A DNA stretch of 64,000 bases from Bdellovibrio sp. KM01 (GTDB lineage: Bacteria > Bdellovibrionota > Bdellovibrionia > Bdellovibrionales > Bdellovibrionaceae). The stretch spans positions 3,286,001 through 3,350,000 of the forward strand of contig NZ_CP058348.1 of assembly GCF_013752535.1 (NCBI RefSeq), read 5' to 3'. The position numbers and the translations under genes were made by a program. The notes under the pieces were generated by a model, which saw only the letters and a program-made list of their open reading frames with translations, made no database searches and was not told the origin of the DNA. Shown here in pieces: positions 23,029 through 40,774 of the stretch; positions within the stretch are counted from its first letter, which is position 1, and the number at the start of each line of letters is the position of its first letter.

Positions 23029-23283
23029 TTAGGAAGCTTTTTTGGAAACGTATTCGATTAGGATATTTCTAATGAGCTTTTGATAGTCAATGTCATCATC
23101 TTTGGCAATTTTCTTTACTGCCTTAAGTAAATCGTCGCTAACTCTCAAAGTGATAGTTTTGTTTTTCTTTTGAAGCTGGAAAAGCTCATTCAAACGAACC
23201 CACTTCCCCTTTTCTTTTAAAAGGAAAGACATATCTCTATCAAGCGGGTCAGAGTCTGACTTCTTCTTTTTAGATTTTGCCAT
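23029..23283 (-). CDS. brnA: BrnA-like antitoxin
   Basis: 84 residues from the ATG at 23283, which overlaps the toxin end by 14 bp and is preceded by GGAGAGG. A lysine-rich N-terminus (MAKSKKKKSD) is followed by a C-terminal ribbon-helix-helix (TITLRVSDDLLKAVKKIAKDDDIDYQKLIRNILIEYV), the DNA-binding fold of BrnA. It should bind BrnT and repress the operon. Order toxin-then-antitoxin is usual for brnTA. Confidence 0.85.
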   Translation of the reverse strand: MAKSKKKKSDSDPLDRDMSFLLKEKGKWVRLNELFQLQKKNKTITLRVSDDLLKAVKKIAKDDDIDYQKLIRNILIEYVSKKAS

Positions 23284-23560
23284 TGAACCTCTCCCATTCT
23301 TTCTTATGAGCATAGCGAGCTGATATAATTCTGAATTTTAAAACTCCATCGATTGCTCGAATTGTGAAAACGACAAATAAGATTCTGTTGCCGAACCGAT
23401 CGAATGCAAAAAAACGAGTTTCACTGGTTGAGTTCTCTACATCGGAATAAAGACGTGGATTTCTTTCAAGGAAGAACTCTATTTCCTTGATGGTTAATCC
23501 ATGCTTCTGAACTTTACCGATATTCCCGTGATCCCAGTCAAAACCATGAATTTTGGTCAT
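23270..23560 (-). CDS. brnT: BrnT-family toxin
   Basis: 96 residues. FDWDHGNIGKVQKHGLTIKEIE at the start and RIISARYAHKKEWERF at the end are the BrnT signature of a RelE-like ribonuclease toxin that cuts mRNA and halts translation. Basic and aromatic residues at the C-terminus are the expected catalytic set. It overlaps brnA downstream. The pair sits about 0.75 kb left of the island boundary, outside it. Confidence 0.9.
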   Translation of the reverse strand: MTKIHGFDWDHGNIGKVQKHGLTIKEIEFFLERNPRLYSDVENSTSETRFFAFDRFGNRILFVVFTIRAIDGVLKFRIISARYAHKKEWERFNGKI

Positions 23561-24308: not shown

Positions 24309-24322
24309 AGATTTGGTGCCCC
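24309..24322. repeat. Left direct repeat (att site) of the island
   Basis: AGATTTGGTGCCCC is identical to 40687-40700, which covers the last nine bases (minus strand GGGGCACCA) of tRNA-Leu plus five bases beyond. It is the duplicated 3' end left by integration. Confidence 0.9.
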
Positions 24323-24334
24323 ACCCATCAAATC

Positions 24335-24352
24335 CGACACAATTTAAACTCC
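24335..24352. repeat. Left terminal inverted repeat
   Basis: CGACACAATTTAAACTCC, 12 bp inside the left direct repeat. Exact reverse complement at 40660-40677. The match continues outward with one indel (AATC/AAT). Probable recombinase or excisionase binding arm. The remaining 24353-24484 holds no gene; it must contain the promoter of the first operon. Confidence 0.85.
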
Positions 24353-24484: not shown

Positions 24485-24826
24485 ATGAAAGTCGTACAAT
24501 TTAATTCCGAAGCAGATCCATATGCCGCATATATCAAAGATCCTGTAGATCTATTTTGCAGTTTGTTTGAAGGAAATCCCCATAAGGTAATTTGCTTCCT
24601 TGATCTATCGAATCTATGCACAAAGTATTGGACACAAAATCATTGGATCGAAGAAGTCTGCGATCAAGTAGTACTCGTTACGGAAGATATAATTGAGAGC
24701 TTCGCGGTTACCAAAGTTCCAATGTTTCAATTCTACCTTTATGAAACAGAAGTTCATGAAATCTGTGGAACTGCGACTGAAAACACAGTTCGGTTAGCAA
24801 TTAAGCAAGTTGCGGAGCGCGTATGA
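24485..24826 (+). CDS. Thioredoxin-fold protein lacking the CxxC motif
   Basis: 113 residues. The second half follows a thioredoxin: IIESFAVTKVPMFQFYLYETEVHEICG, with the cis-proline of VTKVP and the strand-strand-helix end. Where thioredoxin has WCGPC this protein has NLCTKYW, one cysteine only, so disulfide exchange is unlikely and a binding or clamp role is more probable (thioredoxin serves phage T7 polymerase as a clamp). Strong CGGAGG before the ATG. The stop overlaps the next start as ATGA. First gene of a three-gene operon. Fold assignment is by eye. Confidence 0.65.
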   Translation: MKVVQFNSEADPYAAYIKDPVDLFCSLFEGNPHKVICFLDLSNLCTKYWTQNHWIEEVCDQVVLVTEDIIESFAVTKVPMFQFYLYETEVHEICGTATENTVRLAIKQVAERV

Positions 24827-25779
24827 TTAACGTGAATAACGGTGAGCTACAAGCTTCAGATTTCACATTAAAATCCAGCTATAGCCGGGAAATCTCAACG
24901 CACTTTGCCAGCTTAAACGATGACGAGCGGACTGCAGCCTTATCTAGCCTCATCGAAGTTGGTTGGGTTTCCATTAAAGTTGGTCAAAATCGCGGAGACT
25001 TTGACTACTGGGAGAGGCTTACGAAAGAGTGGATCGAAGGCCTCTCAAGCAACTTAATTGACTCCAATGAGGAGCTACTCAAAAACTTCAAAGAAGAGAT
25101 TACGTTCAACATTTTAGAATTTAAAAACAAAGTACAGCTAAATGAAGTGGCCAAAGATACAGCTGAAGCTTTAGCTGACAGAACCACTTTGAAAGGACTA
25201 ACTTTCGAGGATGAAGTCCACGCAATTCTGGCGGACCTTGCAAGTTTAAGAAATGGCGAAGTTGAAGCGGTGGGATTGTATCCTGGCCTTTCCAGCAGCA
25301 AGAAAGGTGACTTTACTTATAAAGACGAGCTGACATCTTGCCTAATCTCAATTGAAGCGAAGGACCTTAATAGCAAGATTTCAGCTGGGAAAATTGATGA
25401 AATACTTATGGAGTCCATTCAGAACCGTGGCGCTTCAGTCGGTATATTCGTGGTTCGTAACTCATCTTGTCTTCCCGAATACTTCAAAGAATTTCACGTG
25501 GGCAAGAAGTACATCACTTGTACGGTTAACCACCTTCGAATTGCAGTTTCCGTCGCTAGCTTACTAGCTCCAGATTTGTCAAAGCGTAGCTCAGATTTCG
25601 CTGATATTAGTGCGTTCATAGAACACATCAAGTCCGAATTGGCGATGATTGATGAGATCGTCAAATCTGCTAACGCGGGAAAGAAATCTATTGTTAAGGC
25701 AATATCGCTATCTCAATCACTCAAGGAAAATTTAGAGATGAGAGTCGAGTGTTTCACGAAAGGAGCAAACAATGAATGA
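24823..25779 (+). CDS. PD-(D/E)XK nuclease-like protein
   Basis: 318 residues. Residues 127-215 carry the nuclease-type core: FEDEV (E129/E131), KGDF (D163), ISIEAK (E178-A-K180), then a helix and GASVGIFVVRNSS strand, similar in outline to DUF2130-type restriction-endonuclease-fold proteins. Residues 1-125 are helical and the C-terminus (residues about 255-305) is a coiled-coil-like helix. It would cut DNA when activated, presumably controlled by the ATPase encoded next, whose start overlaps its end by 8 bp. Target unknown. Confidence 0.65.
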   Translation: MINVNNGELQASDFTLKSSYSREISTHFASLNDDERTAALSSLIEVGWVSIKVGQNRGDFDYWERLTKEWIEGLSSNLIDSNEELLKNFKEEITFNILEFKNKVQLNEVAKDTAEALADRTTLKGLTFEDEVHAILADLASLRNGEVEAVGLYPGLSSSKKGDFTYKDELTSCLISIEAKDLNSKISAGKIDEILMESIQNRGASVGIFVVRNSSCLPEYFKEFHVGKKYITCTVNHLRIAVSVASLLAPDLSKRSSDFADISAFIEHIKSELAMIDEIVKSANAGKKSIVKAISLSQSLKENLEMRVECFTKGANNE

Positions 25780-27958
25780 TTCAGAAAACTACTGGGAAAA
25801 TATCCATATGGACACGCCAGAAGACGTTCCTGAAAGCGCAATTGCGAACGAATACAACAAGGGCTTATACAAAGTATTCTTATCTGCTCAGAACCTATTC
25901 CATTTACCCACGATCGACTCTATGGATGTTCACCATTACATCGGTTTGGAGCATTTGAGAATTGTCATCAGAGCAGCGCTAGCCCAAATCTCAAAAGATC
26001 AAAATTTCAAGTATCTAGCAGTATTCGAAGATAATCGCCAACTTCCTTACACCCGAGGAACAGACTTCCTTATGCGTGACGACTTCTTTGCTAGTGAGGA
26101 CCTGGACGTTGTAAATCTGTTGATTAAGAAAACAATCTATCTTTGTCAGAAAAGTCTTAAAACAATCGATGAGCTTCTTGAACCATATGATTCGAAAATG
26201 CGACTCAGAATCGATCCAGAAGCCTTGCTACAGTCAAAGATACAGTGGGACATTTACATCCTTCATCTGAATTATTGCGGCCTGGGCTTTCCCAGAACTA
26301 AAGTTAAAAGAAACCACCGCAATGACAGTCTGAGTATCGAACGTGTAGGCCTCTTCCTCGGCAGCCTCTATTCAACAGATGTTTTGGACAAAGAACTTAC
26401 GTGCTCCTCCTATTTGTTTGCGAACAGGATTATATTGACCCACCTTAACCAAGTTTCAAGTTGGGAGGAAGTGACCTTAGTTCTTTCTGACTATTCCAGA
26501 CGCACATTTAATAAGCCCCCAACTACCGGAAGGAAAGGTTCAGATGAAATCAGTCCGGAACATTCTATTGACGATCTAGTTTTGGATGAAAGAGTTCGCA
26601 AAGATATTATTAATTTGTGCGACTTCCATTCAAGGGCTTACAAAAAGCGTCCGCTGACTTTCCTTTTTAAGGGTCCATCGGGAGTTGGAAAAACAACACT
26701 CGCACACGGAATTGCAAGACATTTGGGAAAAAAGCTCCTGCGCATATCAGTAAATGCATCATGGGGTGAAATTGCCCCAACATATTTACGCTTTTATTGC
26801 GAGCAAGCTAAGTCGCAAAACTACATCCTTTTCTTTGATGAAGCGGAACAACTATTTAGATACAGCATGGATGAGGAACAGTCGTCTGGCTGGGCCAGAA
26901 TTCTATTTGAAGAATTTGAAGGCATAGCTATCTTTACAAGCAATTTCTCTTTGCCATACGGAATAGACAGACGCATGTCTTATGTGGTTGAATTCAATGA
27001 CCTGAGTGCAGACAAGAAAGCTTCAGTTCTATCAAAGATGGCCAGAGAAAATGGTTTCTATCTTTCCGCCAATGAAATCAAGGAGCTTAGTAAATTTGAC
27101 CTTTCTCCAGGTTACTACGACAGTATCTTCTTGGTTGCGTCAGCACAACCGGGAATCAAGTCGTATGAGAACCTAAAAGAAAGCTTTATCCAAAGAGCTT
27201 CCTTTTTTCTTTCCGAGGATGAAGTTGAGAAACTAAGAGGAAAGAAGATCTCTTCAACAAAGCTATCCTTTGAGCAAAGCTTTCAAGACCAACTAAAGCC
27301 CGTTAACTATGGACTTTTAAAGTTTCAAGAAAATCCAAAGCTTTTCCCTAAGGGAATCAAGATGCTTTTCACAGGTGCTCCAGGGTTAGGAAAGACAGCA
27401 CTGGCAACCTCGATGGCAGAAGATCTCAAGATGGATTTGAAGGTAATCACACCTTCCGACATATTAAGCATGTATGTTGGAGGTAGTGAACGAAATGTTA
27501 AGAGGCACTTTGAGTATAGCGAAGCAAACCCCCAGGTCTTGTTCCTAGATGAAGTAGAAAGTCTTTTCATCACTCGAGACTTCGCGAAAAGAACTCACGA
27601 ACTAAGTTTAGCCAATGAGCTACTTTCTAGATTTGACGCCTATCCCGGAGTCGTAATTGCCGCTACAAACAGGCACGATTTGTTAGACCCAGCGTTCAAA
27701 AGACGATTCCTGTTTCACCTTGAGTTCACTCTTCCATCACAGCCTGTACGAGAACAAATCTGGCGAGAATATGCCCAGACTCTCCCAGAAGAAAGTATTC
27801 TTCAGCTTTCTCAATATGCACTGACTGGAGCTGACATTGCTGACATTTGTTTCAAAATTTTAAACTTTTACGGTACCGATCAGGAGAGATTAATCCGCGA
27901 GTGCAAGGAGATAATTGCCTCTAGGCATCCCCCAACGAAGACAATTTCGATCGTCTAA
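25772..27958 (+). CDS. Double AAA+ ATPase
   Basis: 728 residues. Residues 1-260 are a unique domain. AAA-1: Walker A GPSGVGKT (301-308), Walker B ILFFDE (352-357), sensor FTSN (388-391), arginines 400/401. AAA-2: Walker A GAPGLGKT (535-542), Walker B LFLDE (590-594), sensor ATN (631-633), arginines 644/645. AAA-2 has the MYVGGSERNVKR pore-loop region of FtsH/p97-type remodellers. It overlaps the nuclease gene by 8 bp, so ATPase, nuclease and thioredoxin-fold protein are made in fixed proportion and probably act together. I cannot assign it to a named defence system. Confidence 0.85.
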   Translation: MNDSENYWENIHMDTPEDVPESAIANEYNKGLYKVFLSAQNLFHLPTIDSMDVHHYIGLEHLRIVIRAALAQISKDQNFKYLAVFEDNRQLPYTRGTDFLMRDDFFASEDLDVVNLLIKKTIYLCQKSLKTIDELLEPYDSKMRLRIDPEALLQSKIQWDIYILHLNYCGLGFPRTKVKRNHRNDSLSIERVGLFLGSLYSTDVLDKELTCSSYLFANRIILTHLNQVSSWEEVTLVLSDYSRRTFNKPPTTGRKGSDEISPEHSIDDLVLDERVRKDIINLCDFHSRAYKKRPLTFLFKGPSGVGKTTLAHGIARHLGKKLLRISVNASWGEIAPTYLRFYCEQAKSQNYILFFDEAEQLFRYSMDEEQSSGWARILFEEFEGIAIFTSNFSLPYGIDRRMSYVVEFNDLSADKKASVLSKMARENGFYLSANEIKELSKFDLSPGYYDSIFLVASAQPGIKSYENLKESFIQRASFFLSEDEVEKLRGKKISSTKLSFEQSFQDQLKPVNYGLLKFQENPKLFPKGIKMLFTGAPGLGKTALATSMAEDLKMDLKVITPSDILSMYVGGSERNVKRHFEYSEANPQVLFLDEVESLFITRDFAKRTHELSLANELLSRFDAYPGVVIAATNRHDLLDPAFKRRFLFHLEFTLPSQPVREQIWREYAQTLPEESILQLSQYALTGADIADICFKILNFYGTDQERLIRECKEIIASRHPPTKTISIV

Positions 27959-27996: not shown

Positions 27997-28025
27997 TTAA
28001 ACTGACTCAAGTTGAGTCTCATAAT
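27997..28025 (+). promoter_or_regulatory. Self-repressed, likely leaderless promoter of the XRE gene
   Basis: -35-like TTAAAC (27997-28002), 17-bp spacer, -10 CATAAT (28020-28025). The spacer carries a perfect palindrome GACTCAA-g-TTGAGTC (28004-28018). The ATG is only 8 bp after the -10, where transcription would start. A second palindrome CGACATGTCG lies at 27979-27988. Confidence 0.55.
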
Positions 28026-28033
28026 GGCGAACT

Positions 28034-28381
28034 ATGAAAAAGACAATCCAGCAAACCCGGCGCAAGGAAGTGCCTTTTGGTAAAATACTGTCCGGTATCA
28101 TGAAGGAACGGCAGCTGACTTTAAAGATGGTAGCTCAAATGGCGGGGGTCAGCGTTTCCGTCGCCTCCGATTGGACTGCCGGAAATACTCCTCGTGATCT
28201 TCATGCAGTATTCCGTCTGGCACAGGGATTGGGAATAGACTTTTCGCGACTATTACTTGGAGAGGTGCAAACTACCAAGGAGGTCGGTTCAATTTCGGAA
28301 CTTTTTGAAGAAACTGACATGTTTGAAGGGCTCGTACGCATAAGCATAAAGAAGGTCCATCTAAGAAATTCAACGAAGTGA
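28034..28381 (+). CDS. XRE-family helix-turn-helix regulator
   Basis: 115 residues. The HTH is in residues 21-60 (GIMKERQLTLKMVAQMAGVSVSVASDWTAGNTPRD outline), followed by HAVFRLAQGLGIDFSRLLLG, a typical XRE dimer helix, and a short C-terminal tail. It has no Shine-Dalgarno and starts 8 bp after a -10 box with a palindromic operator, like phage repressors. It may repress itself and the adjoining cargo; which genes it controls is unknown. Confidence 0.8.
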   Translation: MKKTIQQTRRKEVPFGKILSGIMKERQLTLKMVAQMAGVSVSVASDWTAGNTPRDLHAVFRLAQGLGIDFSRLLLGEVQTTKEVGSISELFEETDMFEGLVRISIKKVHLRNSTK

Positions 28382-31318: not shown

Positions 31319-34060
31319 ATGAAAAAGTCCAAAACAGAAATGACCCTAAAACTATCGAACTTCAGATCTCCAGCACCTGCGATCAGCCACGGCGACGCAC
31401 ACAACATTCAAGATGACATGAGTTCTGATATCCCAGCCTTGCCAAAGATGTCTCACAATGAGATTTCATTGCAAGATCAACAACTTGCAGATTCCAATAT
31501 CAACAAATTTCAAGAATTTCGTCGCCCATTACCTCTCCAATATATTGATAATGCTGCAGAGTGTTGTTATAATAAAGAGGAAGTATTAAAACAGGTTCAA
31601 CCTATTGAAATTAATGGCAAAGGCAAAGGACGATTCAAAATGAAACAGACGAATCGCTTCAAAGGACAATGGTTCCAAGAACTATATGTCTCCATTCAAG
31701 ACAGAAAAGTGGGGCACACGTCACTTTTAAGCGAGCATGAGCTGAAAAAATCGATCGCTTTGCATCCACTTCCGGAGGGTTACACTGTCACAGAAGTGCT
31801 GGATGCAATTAGATACAGACAACGTGAGTATCGCAAATCGATCATGCCATTAGCACATACTAACGAGGAACTTTCTTCTTTGACGATTGAATCGTTTAGA
31901 CCAGCACTAACTCAGCTGTTGTCTGCCCAGTCTTTAAATCAAACCATGCATGCACTAAAATGCATTTATCTTCCGTTCTTAAAAGAAACCTACTCATCCG
32001 ATGTTAAAAACGGACTACGAAAGCTTAAGGAGGAGTGGAACATCAAAGTGATGTTCCTCAAAAATGAAAACTTACAAGATTTCAATGCCTGGCTAAAATC
32101 GAAGGAACCACATATCTATCACGCATCTGATATTTCAAAAATCCGTGGTCTCGCCAGTCTTATCTTCGAACGCAGCTCGAATCCAATTAGAACAAGAAGC
32201 ACCAAACATTCGACTTTCAATCCCGAAATCGAAGACATCTTAAAAAAGTTTACGCTGGCAGGATTTGAAGGCCGCAAGGGAATCGTAATCATCTCCCAAG
32301 CACGCAAGGCCATCAAATTGGCTCAGATTACGACAGCGGATGAATTAAAGTCGACCGTGGGCCTGGAGAAGATCGTAAAATTGAACGCTGAAGGCAAAAT
32401 TTCAGACGCTGACGTATCCCGCTTTAAACCCTTCTTTAACTGGCTGGGTGAAGAATACGATTTTTCAGTTCCAGGTTTCTTTGAAAAACACCAGCGAGCT
32501 GCGATTCACGAACTTACCCCGGAAGAAAAGGAATGGTTCCAACGTCACATTGAAAATGTACTACGTCTACACGATCCCGAATTAAAGGGAGTTAAAAGAC
32601 AACTAGATTTGTATCGCCTTCTCCTTGGACAACTTCACCGCCGTGGCGTCACATCATTCACAGACATCCGTCCTTCTGATTTTATTGCTGCAGCCGCACT
32701 AGGAGCAAAAGAAGAAAGAAACCTAGGGCAGTTAAGAGGACTCAAAGGTCTTGCTTCTGCTTTGGTTGAATTCGCATCTCAAAAGAATAAATGGAAAGTT
32801 TTTTCCGATGAGTCCTACGCAGAGTTTGAAACTGCCTGCTTGGATGCCATTGACTATTGCGGCAACAAACATCTCGAAAACTTAGATCTGCTTCGCTACA
32901 AACCGGTCTTTACGTCCCTCGAATGTTCATGGAAATCATTCTTCGAAATAGTATCACAAGATTTTAACAAAATTGCTCTTCTGGATACAAAAGCGCGGGA
33001 AGGAACCAGATCAGCATCCAAAAGCAAAGCTCATGCGGACCTCTATGCACAGATTTATGAAAATCTTATGGAAATTGCACATGGCCCAAAATGCGGCAAT
33101 CGCAGATTAGGTGCAGTTAAAGACTCCTTCGGCAACTTCAGAGAAGGGGGCATTTTAGATAAAGACTACTTAAGCTTTAGCCCTGACGATAAGAGAACGC
33201 TTGATAAATACACTGCCTATGCACTTCAAGCATTCGGTTGCCTACGCTTTCGTTCAGAAAGTGACAACCTGGTTTTCTTTGAGAAGAAGCCAATTTCAAT
33301 GGATGGTATTGCCGGGTGTATTTACCCGACAACCTATATTGACAAATTTTTAGGTGAGACTACAGCGCTCGTTCTCCAACAAGCAGGAGATAGCAGAAAG
33401 TATGACGTTTCATACCTTGTGCCTCTGAGTACCCTAGGGGATGAGTTCATCTACAAATATCTTGCAGTATTTAATATCAAAAACGGTGAAAAGCTTTTCA
33501 AACGTCATGTTTCCACCTATGCAGCTGAAATTAAATGCATTAGCTGTGAGTGGTTTGGCTCAAATGTGAATTTTGAAGATTTAAAAAACGGAAAGACATC
33601 AAACAAAGCTCTCACAACTCACCGCTACAGAAACGTCCTAATTCGCGCAATTGAGAAGTTTTATAATGGTCATGATACTGCGCAAATCCAAGCCATCGTT
33701 GCGGGTCACACATTGGACAGAAAAGACGGATCAAGTACCACACAAATTTATTCCGACTATATTGCTGCTTGCGAGAAGCACTATCCAACACTCAGACGCA
33801 TTAAAGATCTAAACTATAAAACGGAAGCAGAGTTGTTAAACCAACAACTACAAGAAAAACTGGCAAAATTGGAACAACAAGCGGATGCTCATCAGGAACA
33901 GAACTTGGCATTCCAAAAGGAAAACACCCAAAAGGTAATGACGGGACTTGCCGTAGTTAATTCCAATGTTTTGTCACTTAAAGAAGAATTATCCATCGCT
34001 CATGAGGAAAATTCTAAGGGCGCACAAGCAATTCTACCGCTAAAAGGAAATAAAACATAA
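31319..34060 (+). CDS. Very large tyrosine recombinase-like protein
   Basis: 913 residues, about twice to three times normal. The C-terminal part has tyrosine-recombinase box II: HRYR (H768, R771), then GHT (H797) and STTQIY (Y811) as in the usual GH...TTxxY. A possible first arginine is R643 or R645 (GCLRFRSE). The first 600 residues are novel, helical, with two SAM-like helix bundles. The last 70 residues are a coiled coil. Strong AAAGGAGG before the ATG. It may be the integrase of this island or act on another element. Confidence 0.6.
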   Translation: MKKSKTEMTLKLSNFRSPAPAISHGDAHNIQDDMSSDIPALPKMSHNEISLQDQQLADSNINKFQEFRRPLPLQYIDNAAECCYNKEEVLKQVQPIEINGKGKGRFKMKQTNRFKGQWFQELYVSIQDRKVGHTSLLSEHELKKSIALHPLPEGYTVTEVLDAIRYRQREYRKSIMPLAHTNEELSSLTIESFRPALTQLLSAQSLNQTMHALKCIYLPFLKETYSSDVKNGLRKLKEEWNIKVMFLKNENLQDFNAWLKSKEPHIYHASDISKIRGLASLIFERSSNPIRTRSTKHSTFNPEIEDILKKFTLAGFEGRKGIVIISQARKAIKLAQITTADELKSTVGLEKIVKLNAEGKISDADVSRFKPFFNWLGEEYDFSVPGFFEKHQRAAIHELTPEEKEWFQRHIENVLRLHDPELKGVKRQLDLYRLLLGQLHRRGVTSFTDIRPSDFIAAAALGAKEERNLGQLRGLKGLASALVEFASQKNKWKVFSDESYAEFETACLDAIDYCGNKHLENLDLLRYKPVFTSLECSWKSFFEIVSQDFNKIALLDTKAREGTRSASKSKAHADLYAQIYENLMEIAHGPKCGNRRLGAVKDSFGNFREGGILDKDYLSFSPDDKRTLDKYTAYALQAFGCLRFRSESDNLVFFEKKPISMDGIAGCIYPTTYIDKFLGETTALVLQQAGDSRKYDVSYLVPLSTLGDEFIYKYLAVFNIKNGEKLFKRHVSTYAAEIKCISCEWFGSNVNFEDLKNGKTSNKALTTHRYRNVLIRAIEKFYNGHDTAQIQAIVAGHTLDRKDGSSTTQIYSDYIAACEKHYPTLRRIKDLNYKTEAELLNQQLQEKLAKLEQQADAHQEQNLAFQKENTQKVMTGLAVVNSNVLSLKEELSIAHEENSKGAQAILPLKGNKT

Positions 34061-35299: not shown

Positions 35300-35401
35300 A
35301 CACGGTTGTGTTAATACGTTAGTCTTGAATATAAAAAACGTTTGGATTGTTACGGACGATTTGAAATTCTACAAGGTGTGTCCTTAGATTTCAGAGGTGC
35401 T

Positions 35402-37669
35402 ATGTATAGCTTTCAAGAACTTCACGACAAAGAATTTGAATTTCTCAGCTTAGATCTCCTTTCCAAAAAATTTGGCAGGCATATTACAAGATTTAAGAAG
35501 GGCAAAGACAAAGGAGTAGATGGAAGATTCTTTACGTCAGATGGTATGGAAGTTGTTTTCCAATGTAAACACTGGAACAACTCAACCTTCAATCAGCTCT
35601 TGAAGGAACTTGAAGAAGTAGAACTACCCAAAGTAAAAAAGCTATCTCCCAAACAATACTACGTAGTGACCAGCCAAAAACTCACCAGAACACAAAAGAA
35701 CGCCATTTTTTCAGTATTCAAAAGTTACATGAAGAACGCGGACAACGTACTTGGTCTTTATGAGCTTAATCAACTGCTCCAAGATTATCCGGATATAGCC
35801 AGGCAACATTACAAACTATGGTTAGCGGCCACAGATGTACTTTCACATGTGCTTTACAAAGATATCCACGAGCGTTCTTCAGAAAAATTAATCTCGATCA
35901 AAGACCAACTAAGGTACTACCACCCGACCGAGCATCATAAAAAGGCACTCAGCCAACTAGAGAAAAATAAAGTACTAATCATCTCTGGAGAACCAGGCAG
36001 CGGCAAGACTACTCTGGCGGAACAACTTTGCCTTGAGTATGTCGCAAATAAATTTCAATTTTGTCTAATTCAATATGATCTAAGAGAAGCAGATAAACTC
36101 TTTGCTGCAGATCGAGAACAGATATTCTACTTCGACGATTTCCTAGGAAGTAACTACTTCGATGCACTTGAGGGGAGACACGACTCAGCCATTATCGAAT
36201 TTATTAAGCGAATTGAACGTAGCACAGCGGCCAAGCGATTTATTCTTACATCGCGAGTAAATATTCTCAACGCCGGTTACCGACTAAGTGATAAATTGAG
36301 AACGTTAGATCAGGAAAAGTACCACTATTTAATGAAGAACCACTCAACGGTGGATAGAGCAAATATTTTATACAATATTCTGTGGCATAGTTCTCTTACT
36401 GATTTGTATAAGCAAGAGATACTAAAAGACAAAAAATATAAAAATATAGTCAATCATAAGAACTATAGTCCTCGCATTATGAACCACGTAGTGAACTATG
36501 TTGATAAAAGCCTCACCAGCGAAGAATCCTATTTTCCTTGGGTTGAGCAAACTTTGAACAACCCCGAAGAAGTGTGGGCAAATCTATTCGACACCCAACT
36601 CAATGACCACGAGAGATTACTTGTGATTTTGGTGATAGCAAACGGTCATAAGATGCACTCGCTGAATTTAAAACAGGCGTACGAGACTTTCATTAGCAAC
36701 TACCCTTTACCTACGAGAGGAAATATTAACACCGCGTTTGAGGTGCAATTGAAGGTGCTCATCAACTCGATGTTGAAGACCGATCAATATACAAAAGCTA
36801 CTTTTCATTCTGCGATAAATCCTTCCGTTGCAGATTTTATTCTGAAAAGAATGGCGATTCTCCCGTATATAGAACGCTACTATCTCTCGATTGCTAACGC
36901 CCACTCATTCACTTCATTGTTAGGTCTACGAGAAAGAAATCTAATCTCTAGCGATAAAGTAGAACAGGTAGTGAACACTATATGGGCAGCGATCCTTAAA
37001 GATGATGGCCACTTCGATGCTGAATTTATAATTGCCTGGGCAGATGAAAAGCTGAAACGCAAAGTCAATCAAAGTGACCTAAAAAACTATGTCGAGAAAT
37101 TAATTGATAATTCAGATGATATACTTCAAGTCGACCCTGGCTACGTTTTGCCACACTTTAAAAGACTATACTCAGATTTAAACGTATTTGCCTTAAAAGA
37201 ATTGATAGAGGAATACCTCACACGACACGCTGAACTTCTTGAATGGGATCTGCACCAAACTGCCATTGAGTTAGCTACTGTGATCGATATAAAAATATTA
37301 CGCCAAGTAAAAGAGGAGATCAAATCCGTTATTATTTTTTACTGGAAACAAGATTTCAGGACTCAACTAATAGAAACTGACTCGCTTTCTCCAAGCGACC
37401 GTCATGACGACACGGAGTTGCTAATCAAAATTCGCGAGACTATAGAAGACTGGCTACAACATTATGATTACGTATCATTCAACGCCTCAGACACGGCAGA
37501 AATAGTTGATACCATTGACCTGGCTGAACTTAAAGATCTTCTCAGAATGAAAGAACTAATGACTCCTTCCAACCGAAGCTTTCAATTGGAAAAACGAAGC
37601 GGACACGGGAACATAAAGACAGATGAACAATCTATAGAAGAACTATTTGAAGACTTGAAATTTACTTAA
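35402..37669 (+). CDS. Mrr-like nuclease fused to STAND NTPase (Avs-like)
   Basis: 755 residues from the ATG at 35402, preceded by AGAGGTG; an in-frame TTG at 35342 has no signal. Residues 1-110 are an Mrr-type restriction endonuclease: E13, GVDG (D40), FQCK (Q54, K56). Residues 170-400 are a STAND ATPase of the nSTAND3 type: Walker A GEPGSGKT (196-203), Walker B IFYFDD (241-246), TSR sensor. The rest is helical repeats, the sensor part. This order (nuclease, STAND, sensor) is that of Avs anti-phage proteins, which recognise phage proteins, oligomerise and cut DNA. Confidence 0.8.
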   Translation: MYSFQELHDKEFEFLSLDLLSKKFGRHITRFKKGKDKGVDGRFFTSDGMEVVFQCKHWNNSTFNQLLKELEEVELPKVKKLSPKQYYVVTSQKLTRTQKNAIFSVFKSYMKNADNVLGLYELNQLLQDYPDIARQHYKLWLAATDVLSHVLYKDIHERSSEKLISIKDQLRYYHPTEHHKKALSQLEKNKVLIISGEPGSGKTTLAEQLCLEYVANKFQFCLIQYDLREADKLFAADREQIFYFDDFLGSNYFDALEGRHDSAIIEFIKRIERSTAAKRFILTSRVNILNAGYRLSDKLRTLDQEKYHYLMKNHSTVDRANILYNILWHSSLTDLYKQEILKDKKYKNIVNHKNYSPRIMNHVVNYVDKSLTSEESYFPWVEQTLNNPEEVWANLFDTQLNDHERLLVILVIANGHKMHSLNLKQAYETFISNYPLPTRGNINTAFEVQLKVLINSMLKTDQYTKATFHSAINPSVADFILKRMAILPYIERYYLSIANAHSFTSLLGLRERNLISSDKVEQVVNTIWAAILKDDGHFDAEFIIAWADEKLKRKVNQSDLKNYVEKLIDNSDDILQVDPGYVLPHFKRLYSDLNVFALKELIEEYLTRHAELLEWDLHQTAIELATVIDIKILRQVKEEIKSVIIFYWKQDFRTQLIETDSLSPSDRHDDTELLIKIRETIEDWLQHYDYVSFNASDTAEIVDTIDLAELKDLLRMKELMTPSNRSFQLEKRSGHGNIKTDEQSIEELFEDLKFT

Positions 37670-38666: not shown

Positions 38667-40346
38667 CTATGACTTCAATAAAACCTCAACGCGTTGGTCA
38701 GGGTAAATTACAACTCTTTCAAGCAAAGCATATACAATCGATTTCTTATTTTCAAAACTCATATCTTCGCAAACAAAAGTCTTAACTTTATCTAAGGGGT
38801 TAATTCTTTCATGAGCTGCGACAACTTTCTTTTGTTGAATTCTAATACACTCTTGCACTTGCTTGACTGCTTTATCCAACTTTTTCTTTTCGACCTCGAG
38901 GCGATTCTTCTGTGTCATCCAATCTTCCTCGGATAGGACACCTCTACCCAATAAGGAAACAAAGTTATTTCTTTCAATATCTAATTTTTTGTAGTCCACA
39001 TGCAAAAACTGCAGGTCCGCTTTAAGCTGATTTATTTCAGATTGGAGCAGTTCGGTGGACTTTTTCTTTTGATGAATACGATCAATAACGTCTGTCTTGA
39101 GATACATCTCAATTCTTTCCCAGACTAACTTATCAACAGCATCGCTACCGTGATGCTTTCGGTGATCACAAGCAACCCGACCAGCGGTTTGCTTTGACTG
39201 ACATACGTAGTATTTTGCAACGTTTTTTTCGATGGACTTAGTTGAGCTTTTGTAAAAATCATTGTGCCTCGCTCGAACTCCCATCTTTGCGCCACAAGAA
39301 CCACAATAAGCATGTCCCTGTAGAAGATACTCCTGCACCGCATGACGAGGAGTTACACAGGCTCTTCCCAGTCTTGCCTGCTTTGCGAGAGCCCATTCTT
39401 CAGAAGACACTATAGGAGGAATTTCAATAGCGATAGCCTCCCTTTCTTGTTTTGAGCTTCCTTTTTTGCCTACTTCAGTGACCTGTTTAAGATGATAGAC
39501 GTGGCGTCCGGTGTAGCGATCGTCACGGTAAATATTTGTCAGCCAATTGCGCGGAAGGCGACCTTGAGGATTCTTCAGTGCTGCTATCCTAAAATTATTC
39601 CTTTTGAAGTATTCTAGTAGATTAACCCCAGCAAGCTCCAAAGCTGAAATAACGTCCTTATCCGACACCCCAAATGTATTCTTCTCTACCACCAATTTCA
39701 TCGACGTAGGCATATCAGCGGTCACCTGGCCTGACGCCATCGCCACCGCCCATCTAATCGCCTGAGCCTCGCTTGGAACAATACTCCAGGCGTTTTGACT
39801 TTTATCAAAGTCGTAACCCCAAAAAGCTCTGCCATTAGGAGGGCGACCATTGTTTTGAACTTTAAACTTCTTACCAATATGCAACTTTCTTAGGGTCTGC
39901 TTTTTATCCTCTGCACCAATTGCAGACATGAACTGCAGAACAAGTCCGCTATTTACAGGGCCAGTCGGAGTAAGGATTTGTACTTCGTGCTCCTCAATCA
40001 AATCCATGATCTGACCACGCACACTGTGAGATCGGGCTCTAAAGATACGATCGATATTGTCTACATAGATGGCATTCACGCTGCCATCTTTGCAAAGTTG
40101 CAACAGGTGAAAGAATGCCGTTCCTTCGCGGATTTCTTCAAGGTTGTATGCTTCGTCAATAAAGTACTGATCTGCAAGGGATGATCCCGAGGATCTCGAA
40201 TACAGGACACCTTTGCCACCATCAAAAACACCTAGCCTTTTAAGTTCGATACCTGCCTGTTCAATTTGGCGGTGGATGTTTCCACCAGTTCTTTGTTCAT
40301 CAGACGACACTCTGCAATATACTGCTAAAGAAAGTTTTGCTGTCAT
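38667..40346 (-). CDS. Large serine recombinase
   Basis: 559 residues from the ATG at 40346, preceded by AGGAGGAGG. Catalytic domain with S14 in AVYCRVSSDEQ; DNIDRIFR in the expected place; recombinase domain (residues 170-270); zinc ribbon YCGSCGAKM with a later CxxC-like pair (YYVCQ...ACDH); then a long coiled coil. This is the order of phage- and ICE-type large serine integrases. It lies next to the right att site, directly downstream of tRNA-Leu and in the same direction, so it may be read from the gcvTH-tRNA promoter. Its target site is not known. Confidence 0.9.
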   Translation of the reverse strand: MTAKLSLAVYCRVSSDEQRTGGNIHRQIEQAGIELKRLGVFDGGKGVLYSRSSGSSLADQYFIDEAYNLEEIREGTAFFHLLQLCKDGSVNAIYVDNIDRIFRARSHSVRGQIMDLIEEHEVQILTPTGPVNSGLVLQFMSAIGAEDKKQTLRKLHIGKKFKVQNNGRPPNGRAFWGYDFDKSQNAWSIVPSEAQAIRWAVAMASGQVTADMPTSMKLVVEKNTFGVSDKDVISALELAGVNLLEYFKRNNFRIAALKNPQGRLPRNWLTNIYRDDRYTGRHVYHLKQVTEVGKKGSSKQEREAIAIEIPPIVSSEEWALAKQARLGRACVTPRHAVQEYLLQGHAYCGSCGAKMGVRARHNDFYKSSTKSIEKNVAKYYVCQSKQTAGRVACDHRKHHGSDAVDKLVWERIEMYLKTDVIDRIHQKKKSTELLQSEINQLKADLQFLHVDYKKLDIERNNFVSLLGRGVLSEEDWMTQKNRLEVEKKKLDKAVKQVQECIRIQQKKVVAAHERINPLDKVKTFVCEDMSFENKKSIVYALLERVVIYPDQRVEVLLKS

Positions 40347-40491
40347 TAGCAACCTCCTCCTGGGCATTTACCAAGATCGTGTGAAGAATTTTTTCGACCC
40401 GGGCAATTTCCAGCTCCGAAATCGGTACTTTTGATTTTAATACGATGATTCTGTACGGCTTGGCCTTGGGTCCACGCTTCTTCGATGTCAC
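40300..40491 (-). CDS. Small protein overlapping the recombinase start
   Basis: 63 residues from the GTG at 40491, which has AGAAGGAG six bases upstream. Basic N-terminus (TSKKRGPKAKPYRIIVLKSK) and a helix (ISELEIARVEKILHTILV). It overlaps the recombinase by 47 bp in another frame. A second frame (40346-40642, ATG at 40642) covers the same DNA and ends as TAATG on the recombinase start; its first 50 residues look protein-like, its end does not. Confidence 0.45.
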   Translation of the reverse strand: MTSKKRGPKAKPYRIIVLKSKVPISELEIARVEKILHTILVNAQEEVANDSKTFFSSILQSVV

Positions 40492-40659: not shown

Positions 40660-40677
40660 GGAGTTTAAATTGTGTCG
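40660..40677. repeat. Right terminal inverted repeat
   Basis: GGAGTTTAAATTGTGTCG, exact reverse complement of 24335-24352, 9 bp inside the right direct repeat. Next to it (40643-40661) a CCGG(G)AGAG/CTCTCCGG hairpin. Confidence 0.85.
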
Positions 40678-40686
40678 ATTAGTTTT

Positions 40687-40700
40687 AGATTTGGTGCCCC
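40687..40700. repeat. Right direct repeat, overlapping the tRNA-Leu 3' end
   Basis: AGATTTGGTGCCCC, identical to 24309-24322; covers CCA and six acceptor-stem/discriminator bases. Confidence 0.9.
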
Positions 40701-40774
40701 GCGAGGGACTTGAACCCCCACGCTTGCGCACTAGATCCTAAGTCTAGCGTGTCTGCCAATTTCACCAGCGGGGC
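40692..40774 (-). tRNA. tRNA-Leu (anticodon UAG)
   Basis: 83 nt, CCA encoded. Acceptor stem GCCCCGC / GCGGGGC, D-arm TGGTGAAATTGGCAGACA, anticodon stem CTAGA / TCTAG with loop CTTAGGA (UAG reads CUA and other CUN codons), long variable arm (TGCGCAAGCG), T-loop GGTTCAAGTCC. It follows gcvH by 58 bp in the same direction. It is the integration target of the island and remains intact because the island brought its own 14-bp copy of the 3' end. Confidence 0.95.

Follow-up and report, generated by a model that had tools for sequence, protein, structure and literature searches.

Three overlapping genes open a genomic island of Bdellovibrio sp. KM01, and the question that they raise is whether they form a defense system of their own and, if so, which of them belong together. 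They lie in a stretch of 64,000 nucleotides, here called the window, of a 3.96-Mb genome assembled as one contig (G000). The genes, with the regulator gene that follows them and a possible operator, are these:

24485..24826, + strand: thioredoxin-fold protein, 113 amino acids, without CxxC, with a conserved Cys45 and a cis-Pro region (VP)
24823..25779, + strand: helical region and PD-(D/E)XK nuclease, 318 amino acids, core at about 125-250 (E129, D163, E178, K180)
25772..27958, + strand: double AAA ATPase, 728 amino acids, with an N-domain at about 1-263 (no match), AAA-1, and AAA-2
28004..28018, no strand: perfect palindrome GACTCAAGTTGAGTC, directly upstream of the HTH gene, identical in G011, a possible operator
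28034..28381, + strand: XRE/Cro-type HTH regulator, 115 amino acids, present in all three loci (window, G011, and G344)

An earlier, sequence-only reading of this DNA had tied the first three genes together by their overlaps, and both its coordinates and its overlaps are correct: the thioredoxin-like and nuclease genes share 4 bp (ATGA), and the nuclease and ATPase genes share 8 bp. The HTH gene, missed by the gene set of that reading, begins 75 bp 3' of the ATPase gene, and its product matches HTH_3 of Pfam above the cut-off. Homologues of all four proteins are encoded in the congener G011, with amino acid identities of 60% (thioredoxin-like protein), 67% (nuclease), 62% (ATPase), and 83% (HTH protein). 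Between the window and G011, the three operon genes have a pN of 0.21 to 0.24 with saturated synonymous sites, which indicates that the operon is under purifying selection, and because G011 encodes all three proteins under such selection, their reading frames are not due to chance.

The second gene encodes a protein with a PD-(D/E)XK core. The nuclease-like residues that had been picked out in its sequence are borne out by its relatives, since all seven of the sequences compared, from Bdellovibrionota and Archaea, carry E129, D163, E178, and K180. In the modeled core (pLDDT of about 80 to 90), a helix (128-142) is followed by three strands (146-150, 163-168, and 173-179), a second helix (188-202), and a last strand (206-211); this is the alpha-beta-beta-beta-alpha-beta order of the fold, with E...D...ExK in place, and cleavage activity is predicted. 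The N-terminal helical part varies in length, the whole protein having 318 amino acids here and about 385 to 450 in its relatives. Mrr_cat (PF04471) matches five of the seven family members, the window protein not being among the five. A Gal80p_C-like Pfam match to the window protein (E value, 6.5e-4, below its cut-off) was judged spurious. The structural neighbors of the core found with VIA-align are mostly of the PD-(D/E)XK fold, with TIP26 first (Z score, 10.0) and McrC second (Z score, 8.0), and include Can2, EndoMS, Hjc, Cap4, HamA, DdmD, and LmuAB. By VIA-align's own note, Z scores under 8 can reflect a common arrangement, and it is therefore the conserved residues and Mrr_cat that carry weight for the assignment as a nuclease.

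The product of the first gene, searched as a single sequence, had thioredoxins only as its best matches, at an E value of 0.49. A profile of the three family members matched 56 PDB chains, all of them thioredoxins or thioredoxin-fold proteins by name, and the top match, LECA thioredoxin (E value, 8.2e-5), was aligned with a conserved cis-Pro region, the alignment being ambiguous around the classic active site. The predicted structure has the order b-a-b-a-b-b-a at a mean pLDDT of 52, and nearly all of the Foldseek rows listed for this model of low confidence are thioredoxin-fold entries. The 113-amino-acid protein thus has the core order and the cis-Pro of a thioredoxin fold, and the absence of CxxC, the mark of an active thioredoxin, extends to all three homologues. 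The fold without CxxC proposed from the sequence therefore stands, and its description as "redox-dead" is likely, with one reservation: C45, within C-x-x-Y, is the sole cysteine common to the three homologues, is placed by the low-confidence model in the helix that follows the strand at the expected active-site position, and may have a monothiol role. A thioredoxin fold without CxxC is also known from proteins of the HyaE and TXNL4/Dim1 type; one family member matches HyaE weakly (E value, 0.17), and TXNL4B is among the PDB matches. In contrast to these, the window protein is encoded beside a nuclease and belongs to a different family.

The third protein contains two PF00004 domains, with Walker A motifs at residues 301 (AAA-1) and 535 (AAA-2). 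Both Walker A/B sets are intact, as had been read from the sequence, which places the protein in the double-AAA (VCP/Cdc48) class, and its best PDB matches are an archaeal VCP-like ATPase, Cdc48, and Rix7. An aromatic YVG at residue 568 occupies the pore-loop-1 position of the second ring, which in AAA proteins that thread proteins is taken by an aromatic pore loop, and its presence points to protein threading over DNA unwinding. The N-domain of about 260 residues had been called unique; residues 1-263 indeed have no Pfam or PDB match at the sequence level, and a Cdc48-type N-domain was not found there with Pfam. The protein accordingly shares two classic AAA domains with VCP/Cdc48-type ATPases but differs from them in its unmatched N-domain and its partner genes.

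The setting of the operon is defined by the following features:

24309..24322, + strand: attL-type direct repeat AGATTTGGTGCCCC, which marks the left end of the island and copies the 3' end of tRNA-Leu
24335..24352, + strand: inner inverted repeat, left copy, 18 bp; the G011 island has it at its left end too
38667..40367, - strand: large serine recombinase, 566 amino acids (Resolvase, Recombinase, Zn_ribbon_recom), with a 77% identical counterpart in the G011 island
40660..40677, - strand: inner inverted repeat, right copy, 18 bp; pairs with 24335-24352
40687..40700, + strand: attR-type direct repeat, located where tRNA-Leu has its 3' end
40692-40774, - strand: tRNA-Leu, with its 3' end inside the right direct repeat

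The direct repeat at the island ends has 14 bp and includes the tRNA-Leu 3' end. Two congeners (G012 and G022) have empty sites, in which window position 24322 is joined straight to 40687/40691, and these show that the island ends in tRNA-Leu. The island is about 16.4 kb long, and the operon comprises its first genes, in agreement with the position at the head of a tRNA-inserted island that the sequence had suggested. The 18-bp inverted repeats lie just inside the two direct-repeat ends, each nearly as far from its own end as the other, and are possible recombinase sites. A BrnT/BrnA-type toxin-antitoxin pair (23029-23560, - strand) lies just outside the left end.

At the same tRNA, a third congener, G011, has a homologue of this island that seems to be divided between two contigs. 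The trio, the HTH gene, and genes for an RCC1-like protein, a 913-amino-acid protein, and the serine recombinase are common to both islands. The 913-amino-acid protein (31319-34060, + strand), in two pieces in the G011 island, matches nothing significantly in Pfam or PHROG; toward its C terminus it resembles a tyrosine recombinase by eye. The defense-like company claimed for the operon is real and belongs to the variable cargo: the window island has a candidate PDC-S73 (35342-37669, + strand; Mrr_cat nuclease domain and nSTAND3, full-length PADLOC match with an E value of 1.2e-210), and the G011 island has a complete Thoeris (L095, 6391-8944, G011:C5), consisting of a ThsA with SIR2-STALD and two ThsB. 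The tested island genes differ between G000 and G011 by a dS above 2 or saturated, with a pN of 0.11 to 0.33, whereas the host gene gcvH has a dS of 0.35; the two islands are thus far more diverged than their hosts, as would be expected of separate acquisition. A second gene that looks by eye like a serine recombinase (L019, 5016-6353, G011:C1) immediately flanks the G011 island on its left, which suggests a tandem insertion.

Whether the trio is a unit was judged from its distribution. Across 369 phylum genomes, the nuclease and thioredoxin-like genes occur in three copies each and always together (G000, G011, and G344). The full operon is known from two copies, both in one island family; besides these there is one partial locus, in G344, a distant Bdellovibrionales metagenome-assembled genome in which the thioredoxin-like and nuclease genes (31 and 28% identity) are followed by the HTH gene. 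No full-length relative of the ATPase was found in this 97% complete genome, only partial AAA matches. Outside the two islands, relatives of the ATPase at an E value of 1e-100 or better are present in G030, G275, and G253, and the thioredoxin-like gene was not found with any of them. Because the pair stands without the ATPase in G344 and members of the ATPase family are found apart from the other two genes, the trio is not obligate, and its treatment as a unit in the sequence-only reading has to be given up. From the one independent locus, G344, we infer that the linked core would be the thioredoxin-like and nuclease genes, the ATPase and HTH genes being separable.

The ATPase relative of G030 (L018, 8814-12393, G030:C29) adjoins a DUF2130 protein (PF09903; E value, 8e-49), and its neighbors are ZacB/ZacC-like (Azaca-like), Cas4-like, and methyltransferase genes. 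This double AAA ATPase and DUF2130 protein are another candidate ATPase/nuclease pair; when the profile of the nuclease family was compared with this DUF2130 protein, the core and ExK were aligned at a nonsignificant probability of 3.5%. The relatives in G253 and G275 adjoin HTH or WYL regulators, and remoter relatives on plasmids are near WYL regulators and once about 3 kb from BREX brxD. The nuclease, for its part, occurs without either partner in 3 of 366 sampled Acidobacteriota as well as on plasmids of haloarchaea and Methanomethylovorans. On the haloarchaeal plasmids L022, L024, and L025, the genes next to its relatives encode VWA and MBL-fold proteins, helicases, or another PD-(D/E)XK protein. 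The thioredoxin-like protein was unmatched on plasmids. Viral contigs contained no relatives of the three proteins (alignment scans; for the ATPase, also a single-protein scan), and neither the nuclease nor the operon was matched in phage records. A broader scan of genome contigs, made with poor patterns, gave two relatives only, so that lineages beyond the Bdellovibrionota and the Acidobacteriota sample are undersampled.

No existing profile covers this gene set in the 2023 copy of PADLOC, Pfam, or NCBIfam, in line with the earlier statement that no named system has it, and the combination was not found in the open-license literature. Genes 1 and 2 have no model in PADLOC (2023 copy, even at an E value of 1 or below), NCBIfam, or PHROG and no Pfam match above cut-off, and for gene 3 the matches in PADLOC, Pfam, and NCBIfam are to generic AAA domains only, with no system-specific model in that PADLOC copy. 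The closest likeness of the trio is to AAA-plus-nuclease systems such as McrBC: as in McrBC and other type IV restriction, an AAA motor gene adjoins a PD-(D/E)XK gene, and McrC is the second structural neighbor of the core. It differs in that its ATPase belongs to the classic double AAA proteins of the VCP class (PF00004) and is not an McrB-type GTPase, and in its extra thioredoxin-fold gene, and it fails the family tests, no McrB or McrC family being among the PADLOC matches of the three proteins. The best PADLOC match of the ATPase is IetA of IetAS (E value, 3.3e-42), but this match is limited to the AAA domains; the ATPase scores 133 bits against a cut-off of 510 for the IetAS model NF042959 (named IteA in NCBIfam), and no protease domain or IetS model was found among the scanned neighboring genes.

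The explanation that we prefer, although with no better than an even chance, is that these genes make up a mobile nuclease system as yet without a name, which most likely defends the host or the island against phages or rival elements; anti-phage activity itself we infer from gene context only. This reading draws on the gene overlap, the purifying selection, and the constancy of the catalytic residues from bacteria to archaea; on the presence of McrC, Can2, Cap4, HamA, DdmD, and LmuAB among the structural neighbors; on the recurrence of the thioredoxin-like/nuclease pair, always adjacent, in the other context of G344; on the retention of the operon by sister islands that swap other defense genes; and on the G030 ATPase relative, which adjoins a DUF2130 protein near ZacB/ZacC-like genes. 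Against it stand the confinement of the two full operons to one island family, the partnerless nucleases, and the low confidence of the thioredoxin model. Counting against defense is also the place of the operon in the part common to both islands, since it could serve the island itself. For this reason the strongest rival, unlikely as we hold it to be, is a module of island maintenance or competition, in which the nuclease and its thioredoxin-fold partner would be an addiction pair or would exclude related elements rather than phages. The operon, HTH, RCC1-like, 913-amino-acid, and recombinase genes being common and the recognized defense genes variable cargo agrees with such a role, as does the toxin-antitoxin-like layout of a small gene directly 5' of the nuclease gene, with a regulator. 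It is at odds with the G344 pair, whose surroundings differ and include no such recombinase close by, and with the neighbors of the nuclease family elsewhere, which are helicase, methyltransferase, MBL, and VWA genes and not recombinases.

Two further explanations have less to commend them. A DNA repair or housekeeping complex riding on the island by chance is improbable: PD-(D/E)XK nucleases and AAA ATPases are common in repair too, and the top structural neighbor, TIP26, is a nondefense protein, but the patchy distribution (3 of 369 phylum genomes) and the horizontal mobility speak otherwise. Quite improbable is that the thioredoxin-fold protein delivers substrates to the double AAA ATPase as its adaptor, with the nuclease as an accessory. 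Thioredoxin-like folds serve as AAA adaptors elsewhere, in the UAS domains of p97 cofactors and in YjbH for ClpXP, and by analogy with these the VCP class of the ATPase would suit such a role; yet the thioredoxin-like gene is kept in G344 without the ATPase, and the ATPase relatives in G030, G253, and G275 lack the thioredoxin-like gene. Since the trio is not obligate in either direction, the T7-like clamp or ATPase adaptor suggested earlier is less likely than partnership with the nuclease.

Within the reading as a nuclease system, the locus is probably a two-part nuclease effector, unnamed and defensive, with an optional protein-remodelling ATPase. A fuller version, which we advance tentatively and as somewhat short of an even chance, is an undescribed system against phages or other elements in which the CxxC-less thioredoxin-fold protein is a dedicated regulator of the PD-(D/E)XK effector, and predatory bacteria have gained a p97-like AAA remodeller as a control of the pair. 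The thioredoxin-fold protein would bind the nuclease, either holding it inactive or recruiting its target; infection or DNA entry would free the nuclease; and the ATPase would remodel the complex of the two, thereby activating or resetting the nuclease, the choice between these directions being a guess. If this is true, a thioredoxin fold used for binding and not for redox chemistry joins the parts list of nuclease-based bacterial immunity, a p97-class protein remodeller is shown to control a nucleic-acid-cutting effector, and some of the immune and mobile elements that Bdellovibrio-type predators possess, sparsely covered in the literature, are described.

The HTH gene probably autoregulates and may also control the island. 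The palindrome GACTCAAGTTGAGTC lies between possible -35 and -10 boxes of this gene, the boxes having been placed by eye. As no second copy of the palindrome lies upstream of 24485, it is not supported as a control element of the operon itself. We rejected the HTH gene as a diagnostic fourth gene, its family being present in 66 of 364 genomes and on other elements; the relatives inspected adjoin lipoproteins, recombinases, and other cargo. Those at L124, L125, and L126 (G305, G032, and G042) stand beside similar lipoprotein genes, LPP20-like by eye, with recombinase-like and ATPase-like genes in two of the three loci, which suggests a class of Bdellovibrionota elements.
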